Of a DNA stretch of 64,000 nucleotides, positions 14,897 through 23,331 are shown piece after piece; position 1 is the first letter of the stretch, and the number at the start of each line of letters is the position of its first letter. The DNA is from Methylicorpusculum sp. (lineage in GTDB: Bacteria; Pseudomonadota; Gammaproteobacteria; Methylococcales; Methylomonadaceae), in assembly GCF_030651835.1 (NCBI RefSeq), contig NZ_JAUSBX010000083.1:1-64000 (forward strand), written 5' to 3'. Under the pieces are notes generated by a model. The model was not told the origin of the DNA, made no database searches, and worked only from the letters and a program-made list of their open reading frames with translations. The position numbers and the translations under genes are program-made.

Positions 14897-15010
14897 TCAA
14901 TAGAGCAAAACGATAAGCAACCAAGCGTCTTTGCCTGCATAAGCCCGCGCACTTGAATAACGCCAATGTTCTAGCAAGTCCACATAACCACGTTTGACAG
15001 TAGTGCGGTA
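14897..15010 (-). pseudogene. Remnant of a REP-associated tyrosine transposase (RAYT, TnpA_REP), C-terminus only
   Basis: Within an open frame reaching 15337, only the last 35 or so codons resemble a known protein: VKRGYVDLLEHWRYSSARAYAG matches the C-terminal signature of Y1-type REP-associated transposases (usual form NPVKRGYV..P..WRYSSARNY). The catalytic Tyr and HUH His motifs are absent, so the gene is a fragment. It sits directly between inverted REP palindromes of the kind these enzymes process. The upstream part of the frame (15011-15337) looks like shuffled non-coding DNA. Confidence 0.65.
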
Positions 15011-15113
15011 GGTTGCGGTGATGCACGAACCGCATCTGTCGCGATTGATGCGGTCCCGTTTTTCAACGAGTCCTACATCCCATATATCTGATTTGTTCTG
15101 AAACAGATGTTCA

Positions 15114-15165
15114 TAAAGCTGAGCTTGAGGGTAGGCATTCCCAAGCTGGAGCTTGGGAATGAGAT
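15114..15165. repeat. REP doublet, right arm
   Basis: AAGCTGAGCTTGAGGGTAGG followed by the palindrome CATTCCCAAGCT...AGCTTGGGAATG is the reverse complement of the doublet at 14842-14893. Together they form a REPIN-like pair. Confidence 0.75.
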
Positions 15166-15425
15166 ATTTTTGCCCCGTCTCCCTTTGTAAATCAAGAGTT
15201 CCAACTTGAAATAACGCCCCGCTTTGAATTTTCTGTAGGCGCGAATTATTTGCCATTACAGAATGGTGGCTTTTGCAAAAAAAAGAGCTGACCCCATTGT
15301 TTGCGTAGGATTTGGTTTTGACGTTAGCATGAAGCACTTAGTCGGTATCGGCGCAGAGACGCGATTATACGGGTTACGAGTCTTTATCGATGCTCAATTA
15401 ACAAAGCAGTTACTATTTAATTGAA

Positions 15426-16583
15426 TTACTCCGGTTTATCAACGCTGTACACTTTTTCCGCATCTATGCCTAAAAGTTGCTCGCCTTTTAGAAGACCTTC
15501 CAATTCCTGTCCGACCATGCTGTAACGCCAGCCCTGCCTGAGCAAGGAATCCGGGTCATCAAACAACAACAGTTCCAGATCTTTCCGGCTGGCAAGAATC
15601 GCTGGATTTAAGTCATTTTCATCAGCTCGAATGCGGACCAGCGCGGTTAAAATATCAAGAATCGCTTCTTGATGCTGGGACTTTTTTGCCGACCGGCCTT
15701 TGTCATCGAGAGGAACCGGAGGCCTTTGTTTTGCTTCATCAATCAACCGGCAAATGGTTTTGCCGTGTTTCATCGCGATGCGTTCATTAAATCCCCGCAC
15801 GGCAATTAACTCGTCTACACCTGAGGGTTGAAGCTTAGCCAATTCAAACAGCATATCGTCCCGCAACAGCCAGTTTCTTGGCCTGTCTTCGTTCTGTGCG
15901 GTTTTCTCCCGCCATTCGCATAAGGATTGCACAATGGATAACTGTTTGCCGGTCAATTTATTTTTGCCGCGAACTTTAAGCCAGGCATTTCTGGGGGATA
16001 CATCGTATAACTCTGTGTTTTGTAACAGCTCAAAATCGAGTTTCAGCCAATCCAGACGGTTCAATTTTTCCAGCTTTTCCAGCATGAGCTTGTAAATTTG
16101 ACACAAATAAATCACATCATCCGCCGCATACTCCAACTGAGCCTCACTCAAGGGGCGCACCGTCCAATCCGTGCGCGTATGAGCTTTGCTGAGGTTTACG
16201 TTCAATAAACTGGATACCAGCATGGCATAGCCCGGATTTTCCTGAAATCCCAGCAACGGTGCAGCAATTTGAGTATCAAAAACCGGTGAAGGAACCTTAC
16301 CGGTAATTTGGTAAAAGATTTCCAGATCCTGCCTGCAGGAATGAAAGACTTTAATGATATCCGGGTTGTATATGGCCTCAAACAATTCATTCAGATTATC
16401 CAAAGCCAGAGGATCTATGCAGGCAACCCAATCGGGTGTTGCAATTTGAAGCAGACAAAACTTTGGATAATACGTTTTTTCTCTGAGAAATTCGGTATCC
16501 AGGGCCAACCAGGATTCTTTACTGATCTGCCTGCAGAGTTCACTTAATTTGGGTGCGGTGTCTATGTATTGAATAATGGGCAT
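15426..16583 (-). CDS. rnd: Ribonuclease D
   Basis: The 385-aa 3'-5' exoribonuclease acts in tRNA 3'-end maturation. Exo I motif LALDTEFLREKTYYPK (DxE near residues 29-31), a central DEDD fold (FHSCRQDLEIF) and YAADDVIYL in motif III are present, followed by HRDC domains (about 215-290 and a second toward the C-terminus). Length is normal. It is apparently monocistronic, with a 180-base gap to the gene upstream. Confidence 0.93.
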   Translation of the reverse strand: MPIIQYIDTAPKLSELCRQISKESWLALDTEFLREKTYYPKFCLLQIATPDWVACIDPLALDNLNELFEAIYNPDIIKVFHSCRQDLEIFYQITGKVPSPVFDTQIAAPLLGFQENPGYAMLVSSLLNVNLSKAHTRTDWTVRPLSEAQLEYAADDVIYLCQIYKLMLEKLEKLNRLDWLKLDFELLQNTELYDVSPRNAWLKVRGKNKLTGKQLSIVQSLCEWREKTAQNEDRPRNWLLRDDMLFELAKLQPSGVDELIAVRGFNERIAMKHGKTICRLIDEAKQRPPVPLDDKGRSAKKSQHQEAILDILTALVRIRADENDLNPAILASRKDLELLLFDDPDSLLRQGWRYSMVGQELEGLLKGEQLLGIDAEKVYSVDKPE

Positions 16584-16763: not shown

Positions 16764-17321
16764 TCAATCGACGGGACTTTTTTGGGGTTGACCTAAACCT
16801 TGTTTGGATCGCTTAAAATTATGATGTCTTTTTTTTCTGTTACTACTGCCGGTGCGTTTGATATTCAGCCGGTGTTGTTTGAACTCTACACATTTCAAGT
16901 GCTGGAAAATATCTTCAGGCATTCCCTCCGGCAATTCAACCAAAGTAAAAGCCATTCGAATATCCGGATTTCCAATCATTTTTCGTTCAACACCGGATTC
17001 TTCTACTAATAGATCAGTTAACGCTTCTTTTGATAAACCCTGCTTACGTCCGACATCCAGCCGGTAGCGTACCATTTTAGCCGGTGGGTTACCCCTTTGA
17101 ATATTGACTTCCTCATCAACAACAAGGCTGATTTCTGTGTCAGATTCAGGGGGTACTATGGAATTCAACAGATAGAGCAAGGCTGCTGCGCATTCCAACG
17201 CATCACGTTGCAGTTCCTTCGCAAGGTTACCGATGGCTTCTCTTTGAGAAGTTAATGCCTGTGTTTCCAGAATATTTTTTAGTTTCAGAGCTAACTGGTC
17301 ATCCATTTTCATATTAATCAT
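16764..17321 (-). CDS. Stand-alone DbpA/DeaD-type C-terminal RNA-binding domain protein
   Basis: The 185-aa protein lacks any helicase core. An N-terminal helical part (about residues 5-55, with LECAAALLYLL) resembles the dimerisation segment of DeaD/CsdA helicases. The middle (about 80-155) matches the DbpA RNA-binding fold: VRYRLDVGRKQGLSKEALTDLL, then the IGNPDIRMAFTLVELPEG block. A basic tail (KKRHHNFKRSK) follows. It probably binds structured RNA or ribosomal RNA without unwinding it. The upstream 45 bases up to surA contain no helicase remnant, so this is an independent gene. It is co-directional with lptD-surA and may share their transcript. Confidence 0.7.
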   Translation of the reverse strand: MINMKMDDQLALKLKNILETQALTSQREAIGNLAKELQRDALECAAALLYLLNSIVPPESDTEISLVVDEEVNIQRGNPPAKMVRYRLDVGRKQGLSKEALTDLLVEESGVERKMIGNPDIRMAFTLVELPEGMPEDIFQHLKCVEFKQHRLNIKRTGSSNRKKRHHNFKRSKQGLGQPQKSPVD

Positions 17322-17366: not shown

Positions 17367-18656
17367 TTATAGCCTGTCGTGAAAAATTTCAACGTATCCC
17401 TCATCTCTAAGTCTGCGCAACCAAAGCTCTGTCTCTTCTTCAATTTTACGTTTGCGTATCGTCTCCCTGACCTGCTCTTTTTCAAATTCAGAACTGTTAT
17501 CCTGTTGTTTTCTGTCCAAGACCTGGATTAAATGCCAGCCAAATTGCGTTTGTATTGGCTCACTGATTTCATTAATGGCCAATTTATCCATTGTCTGTTC
17601 AAATTCAGCCACTAATGCACCTGGTGTAACCCAGTCAAGACTTCCTCCATTCAATGCTGAACCTTTATCATCCGAGTGGGCTCTGGCCAGACTTTCAAAA
17701 CTATCGCCATCTGTAATCCGCCCCTTCAGGTTTATCAGTCTTTTCTTTGCCTCTTCATCATTAACCAATTCATTGGTTTTTATCAAAATATGTCTGACCT
17801 GGGTTTTAGTGATCATGTGCTGGCCACTCACTCCGCCTTTAGTCTCCAATAATTTGATGACATGGACACCACTTGGACTTCTTATCGGGTCAGAGATATC
17901 ACCTTGTTTCATTTTAACTACTTCTTCAACAAACAAAGTAGGTATCTGGTTCATCGAGCGCCAGCCCAAATCGCCTCCTTTCAAAGCATCTCCGCCTTCC
18001 GATTGTTCCATGGCGACCTGTCCGAAATCCTGACCTTCCCGTAACTGTTTTATTATCCCTTGCACTTTACTGTTAGCTTTCTGGATAGCCGATGCAGAGG
18101 CGCCCTCCGGCAAAGACACCAGAATATGCCCCAACCGGTACTGAACAGCATCACCGCCGAATTTACCCTCGGTATCCAGATAATGCTCAACTTCCCTGTC
18201 GGTTACTTTGACCCGTTCACCGATCTCACGGCCACGCAGTTGATTGATGATAATTTCATTGCGCAGATTATCCAGAAAACTCTGATAGGAGATAGACTGC
18301 TTTTCAAGTTCGTTACGGAATTGCGCCGTAGTCATATTGTTTCTTCGGGCTATATCGTTTGCAGCATTAGCCAATGTTTCTTCATTGATGTTAATGCCTG
18401 ACCGCTCGGCCAATTGCCGCTGCAATTTGTCCATGATGAGTTTATCAAGAACCTGTTTTCGGAGAATGTAGTCAGGCGGCATCATCGTTTTGCTCTCTTT
18501 GATCCGCTGCGAAATAATGGCGACCTCATTTTGTAACTCCCTTTCCAGAATGACATCTTCCTCAACAATCGCGACAATTCTATCCAGCACTTGCGCACTC
18601 ACAGGGGCAATAAAAAAACAACGCAAGAACAGGCAAATCAATAACGCTAATTTCAT
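17367..18656 (-). CDS. surA: Periplasmic chaperone / peptidyl-prolyl isomerase SurA
   Basis: It escorts outer-membrane proteins to the BAM complex. A signal peptide (MKLALLICLF...APVSA) precedes the SurA N-terminal domain (QVLDRIVAIVEEDVILERELQNE) and two parvulin domains (about residues 170-275 and 285-385), then a C-terminal helix. Reading from further upstream (18737 or 18671) would overlap or abut the lptD stop; ATG 18656 gives a standard signal peptide, while ATG 18671 is an acceptable alternative. It lies directly behind lptD as in most gammaproteobacteria, but the usual pdxA-rsmA followers are absent. Confidence 0.92.
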   Translation of the reverse strand: MKLALLICLFLRCFFIAPVSAQVLDRIVAIVEEDVILERELQNEVAIISQRIKESKTMMPPDYILRKQVLDKLIMDKLQRQLAERSGININEETLANAANDIARRNNMTTAQFRNELEKQSISYQSFLDNLRNEIIINQLRGREIGERVKVTDREVEHYLDTEGKFGGDAVQYRLGHILVSLPEGASASAIQKANSKVQGIIKQLREGQDFGQVAMEQSEGGDALKGGDLGWRSMNQIPTLFVEEVVKMKQGDISDPIRSPSGVHVIKLLETKGGVSGQHMITKTQVRHILIKTNELVNDEEAKKRLINLKGRITDGDSFESLARAHSDDKGSALNGGSLDWVTPGALVAEFEQTMDKLAINEISEPIQTQFGWHLIQVLDRKQQDNSSEFEKEQVRETIRKRKIEEETELWLRRLRDEGYVEIFHDRL

Positions 18657-18675
18657 AAAAATGTAATACATCCTC

Positions 18676-21552
18676 TTAATCGGGTTTACGATACCCATAG
18701 ATATTTTTCTCAAAAAACGTATCCAGACTGGTTCCAAAAGATGACAATCCCTTCAGTTCAAGCTGAACAAACACACCCGTTTGACTTTCACCGGTATAAG
18801 CCTGCTCGGCGACTGTCACATCGTTAATCGCGTTAATATAACGACGGCCGATGATACGAAAACGCCAGCAACAGCTTTCTTTTTCAAATCCGGCAAAACT
18901 TTCAACGGTTGAGTTAAACAACATTGAGTATTGCCACCGGCCTACAACATACCAGTTGTCTACAATCGGCCAACGAATAGAAACATCGGTTTGTTCCAGT
19001 AAATTCTGCCGGTAACGATAACCCAGATTAACGATCTGATCAGTTCTGTTGTTATACCTCAAAGCCACTTCACTTCGGGTAATATCATTTTGATAATGAT
19101 CCCATTGTAAAGCCGTAATGAGTTTCAAATGGTCAGTCAACTGAGCATTAAACTCGGTGACCAGATTAGATAGGCTGGTGTCCAAGGGTTGAGGGGCTTG
19201 AACTTGTGCGCCTGCAATGGATTGATTTCTAAGCGCTTCACTCGTTGGAATATCGACACGCCGATCTTGAAAGTAAAATATTTCGCCGACACTTAATTTC
19301 AGCTGTTCCCTGCCCGTTTTGGCATCAATCAATCGTGATGTCAACGCGGTAGTAATCTGGTTTGCATCCTGCACTCTGTCTTCGCCACTGAAGCGGTTTT
19401 CTCTGAACATACTATTGAAGTTAAAATCGTATTCAGCGCTATCAAAAATAGGGATATCATCCTGATCGGTATTGGGTATATACAAATAAAACAGGCGGGG
19501 CTCAAGGGTATGCGTATAAGCCGACTGACCCAGGTTAAGGTCACGCTCCATAATCACACCGCTGTCCAAGGATAATATCGGCAACGTTCGGGAAATACTG
19601 TCCGACTTGCCAATAGCCTGATTGTTCAATGAATACTGAGTATGTTGCAAGGAAAACTTGGGCGTCAGAAAAGTACCCGCTGTCGCCAGAGGCATACTCA
19701 CTGAAGGTTTCACATTAAACCGGGCTCCCTCGACAATCTCATCATGCTGAAAATACACAAACTCGGATCCCATCGCCACATCCAGGGGCATAAAATCAAA
19801 CGAGTGATCCAGGTCCAGCCTGGTTTGCGGCAATCGACGATACGGCTCCTGTTCCGGCAGAATCGTTTTATCAATGGTTTGGTAACTTTCAAGCTGAGAA
19901 AAAAAGGACACCCCCGGTAAATTGTAGCGAACGTCTCCGTGGCTTCTCAAAAAACGGGTATTGTTAAAATTGATCGTATTACCCATGTCATCGATGTAAT
20001 CATCATCCGAAACATAGTTGGCATCAATCGTAGAAACCAGATTGGGCAAAAAGGTTACGTTGTTTCTGAATGCCCCTTGAAATCGCGTCTCATCATCGCG
20101 CAATGCATCAGTCGTTAATACATCCAAACTTAATTCGCTTTGGCTTATGCGGGATAAATACCGGGCATCGCCTCCTATCATCATCCCCCGTTTGGAGATA
20201 TAACGGGGACGGAATGTTGCGTCATAATCCGGGGCTATATTGAAATAATAGGGCGCGGAAACATCATAGCCGTTTCTGTCATTCAGACTTAAATTGGGCG
20301 ACAAAAAACCGGACTTACGGCGATTATCGATTGGAAACGAAATGTAAGGTGTGTAAAGGAAAGGCACCCCCTTAAATTCCAGCCAGGCGTTTTTAGCCGA
20401 GCCTTCACCCGTTTCTTTATTCAGCTTCAAATTGGAAGCATGCATTACCCAGTCCTGATTTCCGGGCGCACAACTGGTGAACGCCACATCGGTGAACCTG
20501 GAAAAATATTTACTGTCCCGGTAAACCGCTTTCGCAGAACCCCGAATGGGAGTAGACGGCGAAATAAACATGGCGTTTCTTAACCTTGCCTCATCCGATC
20601 CGAGTTTTAACATCATGGTTTCACTGTACAGTGATAATTCATCTTCGCTGTAAAAAGAATGCCCCTGAGCATCCATAATCTGGGATACCGTATCGTAGTG
20701 AACCGTATCGGCAGTCAATCGCTGATCAGCGCGGGCCACATCGACATTGCCAAAAAATCCGGTCACTTCGTTATCGAATATTTCGGAATAATCGGCATTC
20801 ACTTCCATAGGCGTCTGTTCTCTTAAATCTTTGCTGGATTTAAAATCAGGCGGCATTCCCAATTTGGTGGTGCACGTCGCCCAAGGATCATAACTGAGCC
20901 TTGACTGAAGAATATCGAAAGTCTGCTCTTGCTCATGATCAAATGTCGGCGTTAACAGCGTGAACCGGGGATCGCTGTCCTCCATCACCCTAGGCTTTCC
21001 TCTTGGGTCTGTGCCACTCAGCTTGCAATTCCAGTTATCATTGCCATCTTTAACATCACAATTCCAGCCTTTTTGATCGTTTGCCGCGACTGTCGGCGGC
21101 GTTGCTTTTGGCTTGGCTCCCGCGTAATTCACGATGACCGGCTTTTCCGGCTTGGCTTTTTCTTCGGCAACGGGCTCGCTCTGCGATACAACCGACTTTT
21201 CATCAGCCAGTTCCTGATCTGGCTGATCAACATCAGTTGAAGCGACGCCTTCAGTCTCTTCACTGAACGATTCAGGGGGTAAAGTTTTTATTTCAGGGGC
21301 TTCGGCTGACTCTATGCCATTGTCTACAGGTTGTTCAGGAAGCTTATCGATGGGGCGTTGCTCAGAAACCGGCGGAACCGGTTTTGCCTGGACGGGAGGC
21401 GGCGTGACCACCCGCGTAGCAGCGGGCTTTTCGGTTACACATTCCCATTCCCCGCTTTCACTGGTTTTTTCACAATCCCAAATTGCATCCTCAGCCAATA
21501 CAGCCTTGGCAGCAGCAAAAAAAAATAAATAGAGAAAAAAACGGAAATGCAT
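18676..21552 (-). CDS. lptD: LPS-assembly protein LptD
   Basis: The 958-aa outer-membrane translocon inserts lipopolysaccharide into the outer leaflet with LptE. It has a signal peptide, an unusually long Pro/Glu/Val-rich N-terminal segment (about residues 30-150), an OstA/jellyroll domain (MEVNADYSEIFDNEVTGFFGNVDV, about 240-360) and the C-terminal barrel (about 400-958). Cys residues expected for disulfides are present (WATCTTKLG, FTSCAPGNQ and a CC pair near 890). The low-complexity N-terminal linker with two WDC/WNC-type repeats is longer than in E. coli. It heads the lptD-surA unit, divergent from amgK. Confidence 0.92.
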   Translation of the reverse strand: MHFRFFLYLFFFAAAKAVLAEDAIWDCEKTSESGEWECVTEKPAATRVVTPPPVQAKPVPPVSEQRPIDKLPEQPVDNGIESAEAPEIKTLPPESFSEETEGVASTDVDQPDQELADEKSVVSQSEPVAEEKAKPEKPVIVNYAGAKPKATPPTVAANDQKGWNCDVKDGNDNWNCKLSGTDPRGKPRVMEDSDPRFTLLTPTFDHEQEQTFDILQSRLSYDPWATCTTKLGMPPDFKSSKDLREQTPMEVNADYSEIFDNEVTGFFGNVDVARADQRLTADTVHYDTVSQIMDAQGHSFYSEDELSLYSETMMLKLGSDEARLRNAMFISPSTPIRGSAKAVYRDSKYFSRFTDVAFTSCAPGNQDWVMHASNLKLNKETGEGSAKNAWLEFKGVPFLYTPYISFPIDNRRKSGFLSPNLSLNDRNGYDVSAPYYFNIAPDYDATFRPRYISKRGMMIGGDARYLSRISQSELSLDVLTTDALRDDETRFQGAFRNNVTFLPNLVSTIDANYVSDDDYIDDMGNTINFNNTRFLRSHGDVRYNLPGVSFFSQLESYQTIDKTILPEQEPYRRLPQTRLDLDHSFDFMPLDVAMGSEFVYFQHDEIVEGARFNVKPSVSMPLATAGTFLTPKFSLQHTQYSLNNQAIGKSDSISRTLPILSLDSGVIMERDLNLGQSAYTHTLEPRLFYLYIPNTDQDDIPIFDSAEYDFNFNSMFRENRFSGEDRVQDANQITTALTSRLIDAKTGREQLKLSVGEIFYFQDRRVDIPTSEALRNQSIAGAQVQAPQPLDTSLSNLVTEFNAQLTDHLKLITALQWDHYQNDITRSEVALRYNNRTDQIVNLGYRYRQNLLEQTDVSIRWPIVDNWYVVGRWQYSMLFNSTVESFAGFEKESCCWRFRIIGRRYINAINDVTVAEQAYTGESQTGVFVQLELKGLSSFGTSLDTFFEKNIYGYRKPD

Positions 21553-21661: not shown

Positions 21662-22657
21662 ATGACGACTGATGACCCCCGTGTAAACCTTATGCTTAAT
21701 TGGCTTGAAAATGATTTATCGCTGACTCTCGATGAATTTGGCCCCGCCTCAAACGATGCCAGTTTTCGCCGGTATTTTCGAATTTCCGCCTCAAAAAAAA
21801 GCTTCATCGTGATGGATGCGCCACCCGATAAAGAAAACACCGCTAACTTTATAAAAATAGCCGGATTAATGCGCAAAGCTTCGATTCATGTCCCTGAGAT
21901 TTTCGAGAATAATCACGCACTGGGTTTTATGCTGCTTGAGGATCTGGGCTCAACCAGTTTTCTCGATATTCTCAGCGAAGAGAATGTTGATGCACTTTAT
22001 GGGCAGGCATTGGACAGCTTGCTGCGTCAACAAGCATATTTTATGAATACAGCCGTGGACATCCCGCATTATGACCAACCGCTTTTGTCTCGTGAACTGG
22101 CTATTTTTGACGAATGGTTTTTGCAGAAGCTATTGAATATTGCTATCCCCGGCAAGATCCGATCGGATAGGGATGAACTGTTAATAGATTCAGCCCTGGC
22201 ACAACCGGTCACCTTTGTTCATCGCGATTACCATTCGCGCAATCTTATGGTGACCGAAGTTAACGGACCGGGGGTTATAGATTTCCAGGATGCCGTGTTG
22301 GGCCCCATCACTTATGATGCCGTATCATTACTCAAAGATTGCTATATCAGCTGGCCCGAAACCGCCGTTGATAGCTGGCTCAAAAACTATTTCCAACAAC
22401 TGAAACAGGTCCATCCTTTCGAGGCCGATTATCCGCAATTTCAACGCTGGTTTAACCTGATGGGTTTACAACGCCACCTAAAAGCCATTGGCATTTTTTG
22501 CCGCTTGCATCTTCGCGATAACAAATCCGGCTATCTGGCCGATATTCCTCGTACGTTGGACCACGTCATATCGGTCTGCCGGCTTTACCCCGAGTTATCC
22601 GGATTTTTGGACTTTCTGACGCAAGCTGTGCTTCCTCTTTATGAGCGTCCAGCATGA
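21662..22657 (+). CDS. amgK: N-acetylmuramate/N-acetylglucosamine kinase AmgK
   Basis: This 331-aa aminoglycoside-phosphotransferase-fold kinase phosphorylates MurNAc (and GlcNAc) at the anomeric position in peptidoglycan recycling. Visible motifs are NDASFRRYFRI near the N-terminus, the catalytic loop FVHRDYHSRNLMV and the metal-binding segment GVIDFQDAVLGPITYD. It overlaps murU by four bases (ATGA), the standard amgK-murU pairing, and lies divergent to lptD as in Pseudomonas. Confidence 0.92.
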   Translation: MTTDDPRVNLMLNWLENDLSLTLDEFGPASNDASFRRYFRISASKKSFIVMDAPPDKENTANFIKIAGLMRKASIHVPEIFENNHALGFMLLEDLGSTSFLDILSEENVDALYGQALDSLLRQQAYFMNTAVDIPHYDQPLLSRELAIFDEWFLQKLLNIAIPGKIRSDRDELLIDSALAQPVTFVHRDYHSRNLMVTEVNGPGVIDFQDAVLGPITYDAVSLLKDCYISWPETAVDSWLKNYFQQLKQVHPFEADYPQFQRWFNLMGLQRHLKAIGIFCRLHLRDNKSGYLADIPRTLDHVISVCRLYPELSGFLDFLTQAVLPLYERPA

Positions 22658-23331
22658 AAGCGATGATACTTGCCGCAGGCCGCGGCGAACGCATGCGTCC
22701 ATTGACCGACCACACGCCGAAACCTCTGCTGCTGGCTGCTGATAAGGCTTTGATTGTCCATACCATTGAACAACTCTGCCAGGCGGGTTTCACAGAAATT
22801 GTTATCAATCTCGCGCATTTGGGCGAACAAATAAAGCATTTTCTGGGTAATGGCCATCGATTCAAAGTAGCCATTGAATATTCAGATGAAGGGGATAGCG
22901 CGCTCGAAACCGCAGGCGGCATTATTAAAGCCTTGCCATTACTGGGATCCTCCCCGTTTCTTGTCGTCAATGGCGACATTGCAACCAATTTTCCGTTTGC
23001 CTCACTCAGAACGCTGGAAATCAATCTCGCCCACCTGATACTGGTAAATAATCCCGTCCACCATCCTGATGGCGATTTTGGTCTTGACCAAACGAACAAT
23101 GTCGTGAATGATGCGCCTGTCAAGTTGACTTTTAGCGGCATCGGCGTTTACAGCCCCGCATTATTCGAAGGCTGTCTACCCGGTAAGCAGAAATTGGCCC
23201 CCCTACTCAGGTCAGCGATCGAACAGCAACGTATTACCGGTCAAAAATTCGAAGGATTTTGGCTGGATATAGGCACACCCGAAAGGTTACTCGAACTGGA
23301 TCACCACTACCGAAGAGGCACACACTCATGA
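22654..23331 (+). CDS. murU: N-acetylmuramate-1-phosphate uridylyltransferase MurU
   Basis: The 225-aa nucleotidyltransferase makes UDP-MurNAc directly from MurNAc-1-P, bypassing MurA/MurB and hence fosfomycin. The signature [20 protein letters not shown] (about residues 7-26) and the metal-binding VVNGDI are intact. It starts inside amgK and stops inside the dodecin start (ATGA again), so the three genes are translationally linked. Confidence 0.92.

Follow-up and report, generated by a model that had tools for sequence, protein, structure and literature searches.

We describe a small gene of Methylicorpusculum sp. in which the C-terminal region of a DeaD-type RNA helicase is encoded as a protein of its own. 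In the 64,000-nucleotide stretch of DNA that was analyzed (the window; positions 1 to 64,000 of contig NZ_JAUSBX010000083.1), the gene occupies 16764..17321 on the minus strand and encodes 185 amino acids. That it is intact and joins a DeaD-type dimerization domain to a DbpA-type RNA-binding domain and a basic tail, with no helicase core, had been proposed in an initial annotation and is confirmed here by Pfam, by the open reading frame and by a count of charges. The stand-alone protein is confined to one family of methanotrophs in the sweeps of this phylum made here. We put forward, as a proposition that we hold to be evenly balanced, that it may be a small RNA-binding, chaperone-like protein that works independently of ATP and with changed recognition.

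Gene structure and protein architecture

The frame begins with ATG, ends with TGA and contains no internal stop when translated. The N-terminal residues 8-52 (17166..17300, minus strand) match the DeaD dimerization family PF25399 barely over its cut-off (E 4e-5, 24.0 bits, cut-off 23), and residues 85-155 (16857..17069, minus strand) belong to the RRM-like DbpA family PF03880 (E 3.9e-16, 59.3 bits, cut-off 25.6); a search of the genome with PF03880 returns exactly bases 16857..17069 for this gene. The C-terminal tail, residues 158-185 (16767..16850, minus strand), has a net charge of +7. Pfam finds no helicase domain in the protein, which thus lacks the two RecA-like domains of a DEAD-box helicase, and an NCBIfam helicase model aligns only through its tail (484-568 of 628), with 32.7 bits against a cut-off of 989. 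A DMRT-like Pfam match below threshold (E 0.07) was disregarded.

Searching with phmmer gave a single solved relative of the 185-aa protein, the RNA-binding domain of DeaD (5b88, E 2.2e-7), and a family profile aligns the N-terminal part to helices 168-218 of DeaD chain 5gi4, if weakly (E 0.053). The same architecture is found in an alignment of 27 stand-alone members (A1), with PF03880 in 27/27 and PF25399 in 26/27 (E ≤ 0.01). The best conserved piece of their N-terminal domain is a CAAALL core, and the tail is positively charged in every member (net charge +2 to +12).

No frameshifted helicase core, a finding that the initial annotation had held to speak against its reading, lies beside the gene, because the neighbors on both sides are full-length: surA, directly upstream across a gap of 45 bp, with SurA_N and PpiC domains (17367..18737, minus strand), and rnd, encoding ribonuclease D, downstream (15426..16583, minus strand; TIGR01388, E 9.7e-107). 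Two further PF03880 matches lie on other contigs of the same genome, one in DeaD (a 613-aa frame, a full helicase) and one in DbpA (a 478-aa frame). The full-length flanking genes surA and rnd, together with the long frames of deaD and dbpA elsewhere in the genome, rule out a broken helicase.

Genomic context

The place beside surA, which had been remarked on in the window, is shared by nearly all loci that were read. Upstream and on the same strand, surA is the neighbor at 23/23 loci of one set (L005-L027) and at 28/29 of another that overlaps it (L069-L097), and likewise at 8/8 (L131-L138) and 9/10 (L142-L151) further loci. At one of the two exceptions (L150) the contig ends just before the gene, the match beginning 135 bases from the contig end. 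The other (L089, genome G516, gene at 1474-2088) has no surA within the flanks examined and is the only copy of that kind among the 29 loci L069-L097; a nearby reading frame resembles an IS transposase. Adjacency to rnd is not general in the family, as it was seen within the examined flanks at part of the loci.

Outside the family, the gene behind surA reads as pdxA at 8/8 loci (L104-L106, L108-L112), and ksgA comes next at seven of these, six judged from translations and the seventh (G027) by Pfam. Pfam also places PdxA right behind surA in all four outside-family genomes searched (G027, G030, G031, and G041). In the family, all eight genomes searched, including G009, which does not carry the stand-alone gene, possess PdxA and KsgA, neither of which adjoins surA; the two adjoin each other in 7/8, and in G012 they are about 2 kb apart. 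Thus, an old order surA-pdxA-ksgA has been broken in the family, and the stand-alone gene stands in the slot.

This arrangement bears on the possibility that the protein acts locally, regulating the lptD-surA message or envelope genes post-transcriptionally from within the operon under its control. Such a role would agree with the position immediately downstream of surA, in the same orientation, at nearly all loci read, and a simple scan found no terminator-like site on the minus strand in the gap between surA and the stand-alone gene (promoter-like and terminator-like sites were no commoner than in shuffled sequence). However, the window has no Rfam match and hence offers no regulatory RNA element, the break-up of surA-pdxA-ksgA can explain the position, and the G516 copy is found without surA in the examined flanks. 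We regard local regulation as highly improbable.

Two other features of the window were noted. A 146-aa frame at 14897..15337 (minus strand), the end of which (YVDLLEHWRYSSARAY) resembles REP-associated tyrosine transposases, appears to be a remnant fused to sequence of other origin. At 21662..23331 (plus strand), divergent from lptD, two genes encode a kinase-like protein and a nucleotidyltransferase, presumably AmgK and MurU of cell-wall recycling.

Distribution

The family of the window (code f1), with its 201 genomes, is what we take to be the Methylomonadaceae of GTDB. Counting as stand-alone a match with E < 1e-40, a level far above any DeaD, we found the gene in 191 of the 201 genomes among the matches listed. 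Short proteins of this kind near surA in relatives, for which the initial annotation had proposed a search, are therefore present, and the lack of conservation that would have refuted its reading did not occur: conservation is family-wide and far beyond chance. The other ten genomes comprise three true absences, one gene cut by a contig end (G558) and six that are not assessable, either because surA is cut (G496) or because there is no surA match (G444, G456, G462, G481, and G485). The true absences (G009, G438, and G457), in which surA is present and the stand-alone gene absent, all belong to genus g8; the sequence behind surA differs among all three of the g8 loci without the gene (L100, L102, and L103). 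Since three of the six g8 genomes lack it, the gene is not essential everywhere. These losses may be independent events.

When the order was swept as a whole, the gene was present in 77/77 genomes of the family and in 0/74 of other families among the matches listed, and the best match in those 74 (E 1.1e-32) lies in a long frame. A comparison of 41 relatives, in which we counted short frames that match the RNA-binding part or the greater part of the protein, gave such frames in 24/25 family genomes and in 0/16 from other families of the order; the matches in these 16 fall in frames of at least 549 aa. In a sweep of 369 genomes, two of them of the family, the outside-family frames among the matches listed are long except in G230 (264 aa) and G356 (354 aa), which are both near a contig start and are probably cut DeaD genes. 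Across 398 genomes of the phylum, the PF03880 matches listed include two frames shorter than 300 aa, one in G787 (103 aa, contig position 93) and one in G814 (261 aa, contig position 558). Among the named carriers are Methylotuvimicrobium buryatense 5G, a member of the order Methylococcales, and Methylomicrobium records.

In a phage collection, the sole match at E ≤ 1e-3 was the DeaD gene of a Salmonella record. A plasmid search matched 16 records, all with less than 80% coverage of the query; eight are listed, with five matches under annotated DEAD/DEAH helicases and three under no annotated gene. A mobile or phage origin was rejected, as no mobile relative was seen in the phage and plasmid collections.

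Origin and selection

We placed 76 C-terminal segments (23 stand-alone, 53 DeaD) in an unrooted tree. All stand-alone sequences group together (support 100/100), and the branch that separates them from every DeaD row is long and has full support. The 23 stand-alone rows were drawn from more than 50 loci; close copies were omitted, as were L021, L023 and the greater part of L069-L097. The AU test does not reject a topology in which the stand-alone group joins the DeaD of the same family (p 0.208).

Within the genus, the stand-alone gene has a dN/dS of 0.25-0.33, and is therefore under purifying selection; the values for surA and rnd are 0.04-0.11. Constraint is strongest in the RNA-binding domain, where the window protein is 95% identical to both relatives (dN 0.023), and loosest in the linker, with 52-56% identity to the window in the two relatives.

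A partial paralogue that evolves faster than its neighbors might be thought a decaying, functionless fragment of a duplicated deaD. Against this, the open frame and the position are kept across the family in one clade, dN in the RNA-binding domain is well under dS, and the proteins have a conserved residue set of their own; we give decay next to no credence. A non-functional remnant is ruled out by the family-wide conservation together with the dN/dS.

Predicted fold and the RNA-contact helix

Structure prediction from six sequences yielded a low-confidence model of the full-length protein (mean pLDDT 57); a model of the RNA-binding domain alone is of middling confidence (pLDDT 66). With the latter, the nine best Foldseek matches are chains of CsdA, DbpA and YxiN, led by 5b88 (E 7.3e-4), the only one of 944 matches with E ≤ 0.001; the other eight have E values from 3.6e-3 to 2.5e-2, and unrelated folds come next. 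The RNA-binding domain of Hera (5mao) is a weak match at rank 25 (E 0.22). The model thus supports the RRM-like fold of a DbpA-type domain, in agreement with the sequence, and not its details.

The residues through which such domains contact RNA are changed. As reported in PMC3695512, residues G423, T424 and K427 of YxiN touch RNA. Through ungapped alignments of the family with CsdA and of DbpA with YxiN, these correspond to positions 103, 104 and 107 of the stand-alone protein, within a stretch of helix alpha1 (residues 102-107; 17001..17018, minus strand) that replaces the DeaD motif VGAIAN. The counts cover 57 stand-alone and 53 DeaD segments, all different, and call for some caution in that the profile to which the DeaD rows were aligned was derived from stand-alone sequences; duplicates and L003, L004, L034, L039, and L040 were dropped, the loci L142-L151 of a genus coded g15 lie outside the 57, and one of the 57 rows, probably L023, which holds masked letters, is gapped at positions 103-107. 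G103, A104 and N107 each occur in 53/53 DeaD rows, and in 0/57, 1/57 and 1/57 stand-alone rows, so that the residues invariant in DeaD at the YxiN contact positions are not kept. In their place, the stand-alone proteins have mainly K (27), Q (10) or D (10) at position 103, V at 104 in 41/57, and E or D at 107 in 50/57. Position 146 is E in 49/57 stand-alone rows versus R or W in 48/53 DeaD rows, and K82, R85, D137, I138, F139, H141 and E146 are more constant in the stand-alone proteins than in DeaD.

A second contact of YxiN, also reported in PMC3695512, is a loop in which the main-chain amides of I436, G437 and I439 hold a guanine. The equivalent positions are 116, 117 and 119. I116 is kept in 55/57 stand-alone proteins, and at 119 the window protein and its two congeners carry a proline, whose main-chain nitrogen has no hydrogen that it could donate.

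We read the stand-alone RRM-like domain as a changed binding surface under selection. Loss of the helix alpha1 residues that are invariant in DeaD at these positions makes it unlikely that the same RNA is bound in the same way, and the rewritten helix argues for RNA targets differing from those of DeaD. The C-terminal region of DeaD/CsdA (5b88, 5gi4) remains the best match of the stand-alone protein in both sequence and fold, as it likewise consists of dimerization helices, a linker, an RRM-like domain of DbpA type and a basic tail. In contrast to it, the stand-alone protein has no helicase core, has lost VGAIAN, mostly carries E rather than R or W at 146 and is encoded by its own gene. The RNA-binding domains of DbpA and YxiN (7pli, 7pmq, 2g0c, and 3moj) share PF03880 and the fold; these two are helicases, unlike the stand-alone family, which has other residues at positions 103, 104 and 107. 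For YxiN, PMC3695512 states that the hairpin 92 loop in 23S rRNA is what it recognizes.

The acidic position 107 and E146 could also mean that the RRM-like face binds no RNA at all. The chief rival of the RNA-chaperone-like reading is that the RRM-like domain has turned protein-binding and that the protein is an adaptor, docking on a ribosome-assembly factor, an RNase or a helicase to which the tail brings RNA. Such an adaptor would fit the replacement of the RNA-contact residues by a different, strongly conserved and partly acidic set on a fold that is itself conserved, with E107-E108, D137-I-F-Q-H141 and E146 as its candidate surface. However, the basic tail and the parent family favor RNA, the models available for placing the conserved residues reach a pLDDT of only 57 and 66, and the partner is hypothetical. 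We judge an adaptor to be unlikely, if worth keeping in mind.

Loss of the dimerization domain in most of one genus

The dimerization domain is missing in 19 of the 20 genomes coded g15, in which the RNA-binding domain and the basic tail are kept. At the 19 loci (L021, L131-L138, L142-L151), a profile of the N-terminal domain found no matching frame anywhere in the locus, even at E 10; the same profile recovered 8/8 control loci with the domain at E 2e-15 or better. In the nine g15 loci whose frames were read, the place of the domain, between surA and the RNA-binding domain, is taken by an N-terminus that is short (about 20-80 aa) and variable. The twentieth genome, G581 (L069), has the full-length form, in an assembly of 570 contigs that is 89% complete with 4% contamination. 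All 20 genomes contain a long DeaD-type frame of at least 600 aa.

The initial annotation had suggested that the protein could compete with, or guide, a DEAD-box helicase. Such a modulator of DeaD could form mixed dimers through the dimerization helices or compete for the RNA sites of DeaD, and so act as a dominant-negative or recruiting subunit. The match of the N-terminal domain to the DeaD dimerization family in all but one member of A1, with the CAAALL core as its best conserved piece, is what mixed dimers would call for, as is the presence of the partner in family genomes, where 18 of the 19 DeaD genes examined have frames of at least 590 aa and the other (L130) is truncated at a contig end, with 417 aa; even within g15, G581 has the dimerization domain. 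Yet the other g15 genomes lack the domain and have a long DeaD-type frame. Since the domain was lost and the rest kept, a mixed dimer with DeaD is unlikely as a general mechanism, and loss of the canonical RNA-contact helix speaks against competition for the same RNA. The suggestion is weakened by both losses, and modulation of DeaD now seems to us quite improbable.

Proposed function and implications

The chaperone-like reading builds on what is observed, that is, the architecture, the intactness, the restriction to one clade, the conservation, the position, the loss of contact residues and the lack of the dimer domain in nearly all of g15. From these we infer RNA binding, dimerization, chaperone activity and the RNAs concerned. 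The flexible basic tail would grip structured RNA via the backbone, without ATP, and the RRM-like core, if it binds RNA, would do so with a recognition unlike that of DeaD and DbpA owing to its rewritten contact helix. In most genera the N-terminal helices might bring about a dimer, which would have two arms with which to chaperone or bridge RNA; in g15, where these helices are missing, the protein would act as a monomer. Against the chaperone-like reading stand the PF25399 match in the window, so close to its cut-off, the confidence of the two models (pLDDT 57 and 66) and the absences in g8. Overall, the interpretation given in the initial annotation is partly supported, and an RNA chaperone, which it had named as one possibility, is the class of function that we tentatively favor.

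Biochemical precedent comes from Hera of Thermus thermophilus. In PMC3695512, its fragment 370-510, composed of the dimerization and RNA-binding domains without the core, binds RNA about like the RNA-binding domain alone, to which the dimerization domain adds little; GST-RBD has a Kd of 0.45 uM, and deletion of the arginine-rich tail lowers affinity about 25-fold, the contacts of the tail being most likely unspecific and electrostatic. By analogy, the stand-alone architecture is biochemically plausible as that of a free RNA binder. It has the same parts as the Hera fragment, but is a natural gene and not a laboratory construct, and phmmer and family-profile searches gave no sequence match to the Hera tail. 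Treponema pallidum TPANIC_1029 is likewise annotated after the DbpA domain, as a 'DbpA RNA binding domain protein', and a table in PMC8525777 gives it an entry separate from that of the DEAD/DEAH helicase TPANIC_0770; the comparison with the stand-alone protein concerns this annotation. The DbpA domain family is already well known; of a natural helicase-free DeaD tail in methanotrophs, no account was found in the open-access library searched.

As to how such a protein arose, we consider, at somewhat less than an even chance, a copy of the DeaD C-terminus that lost its motor, had its RNA-contact helix rewritten under selection, became a near-universal, family-specific factor and later discarded the dimer module in most of one genus. 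If a DeaD tail has indeed been neofunctionalized in this way, it would define a new class of small bacterial proteins that associate with RNA or the ribosome, and its target would be one that neither DeaD nor DbpA shares.

The findings suggest that a DEAD-box helicase can give rise, from one of its accessory parts, to a gene that is independent and long-lived. The family also offers a natural dissection: some genomes have the full version, others a version lacking the dimer domain, and three have no such gene, which makes the role of each part testable. If the protein does not bind RNA, an RRM-like domain would have been turned to another use; if it does, nearly all members of an environmentally important family of methanotrophs would possess a small RNA-binding protein of this kind.
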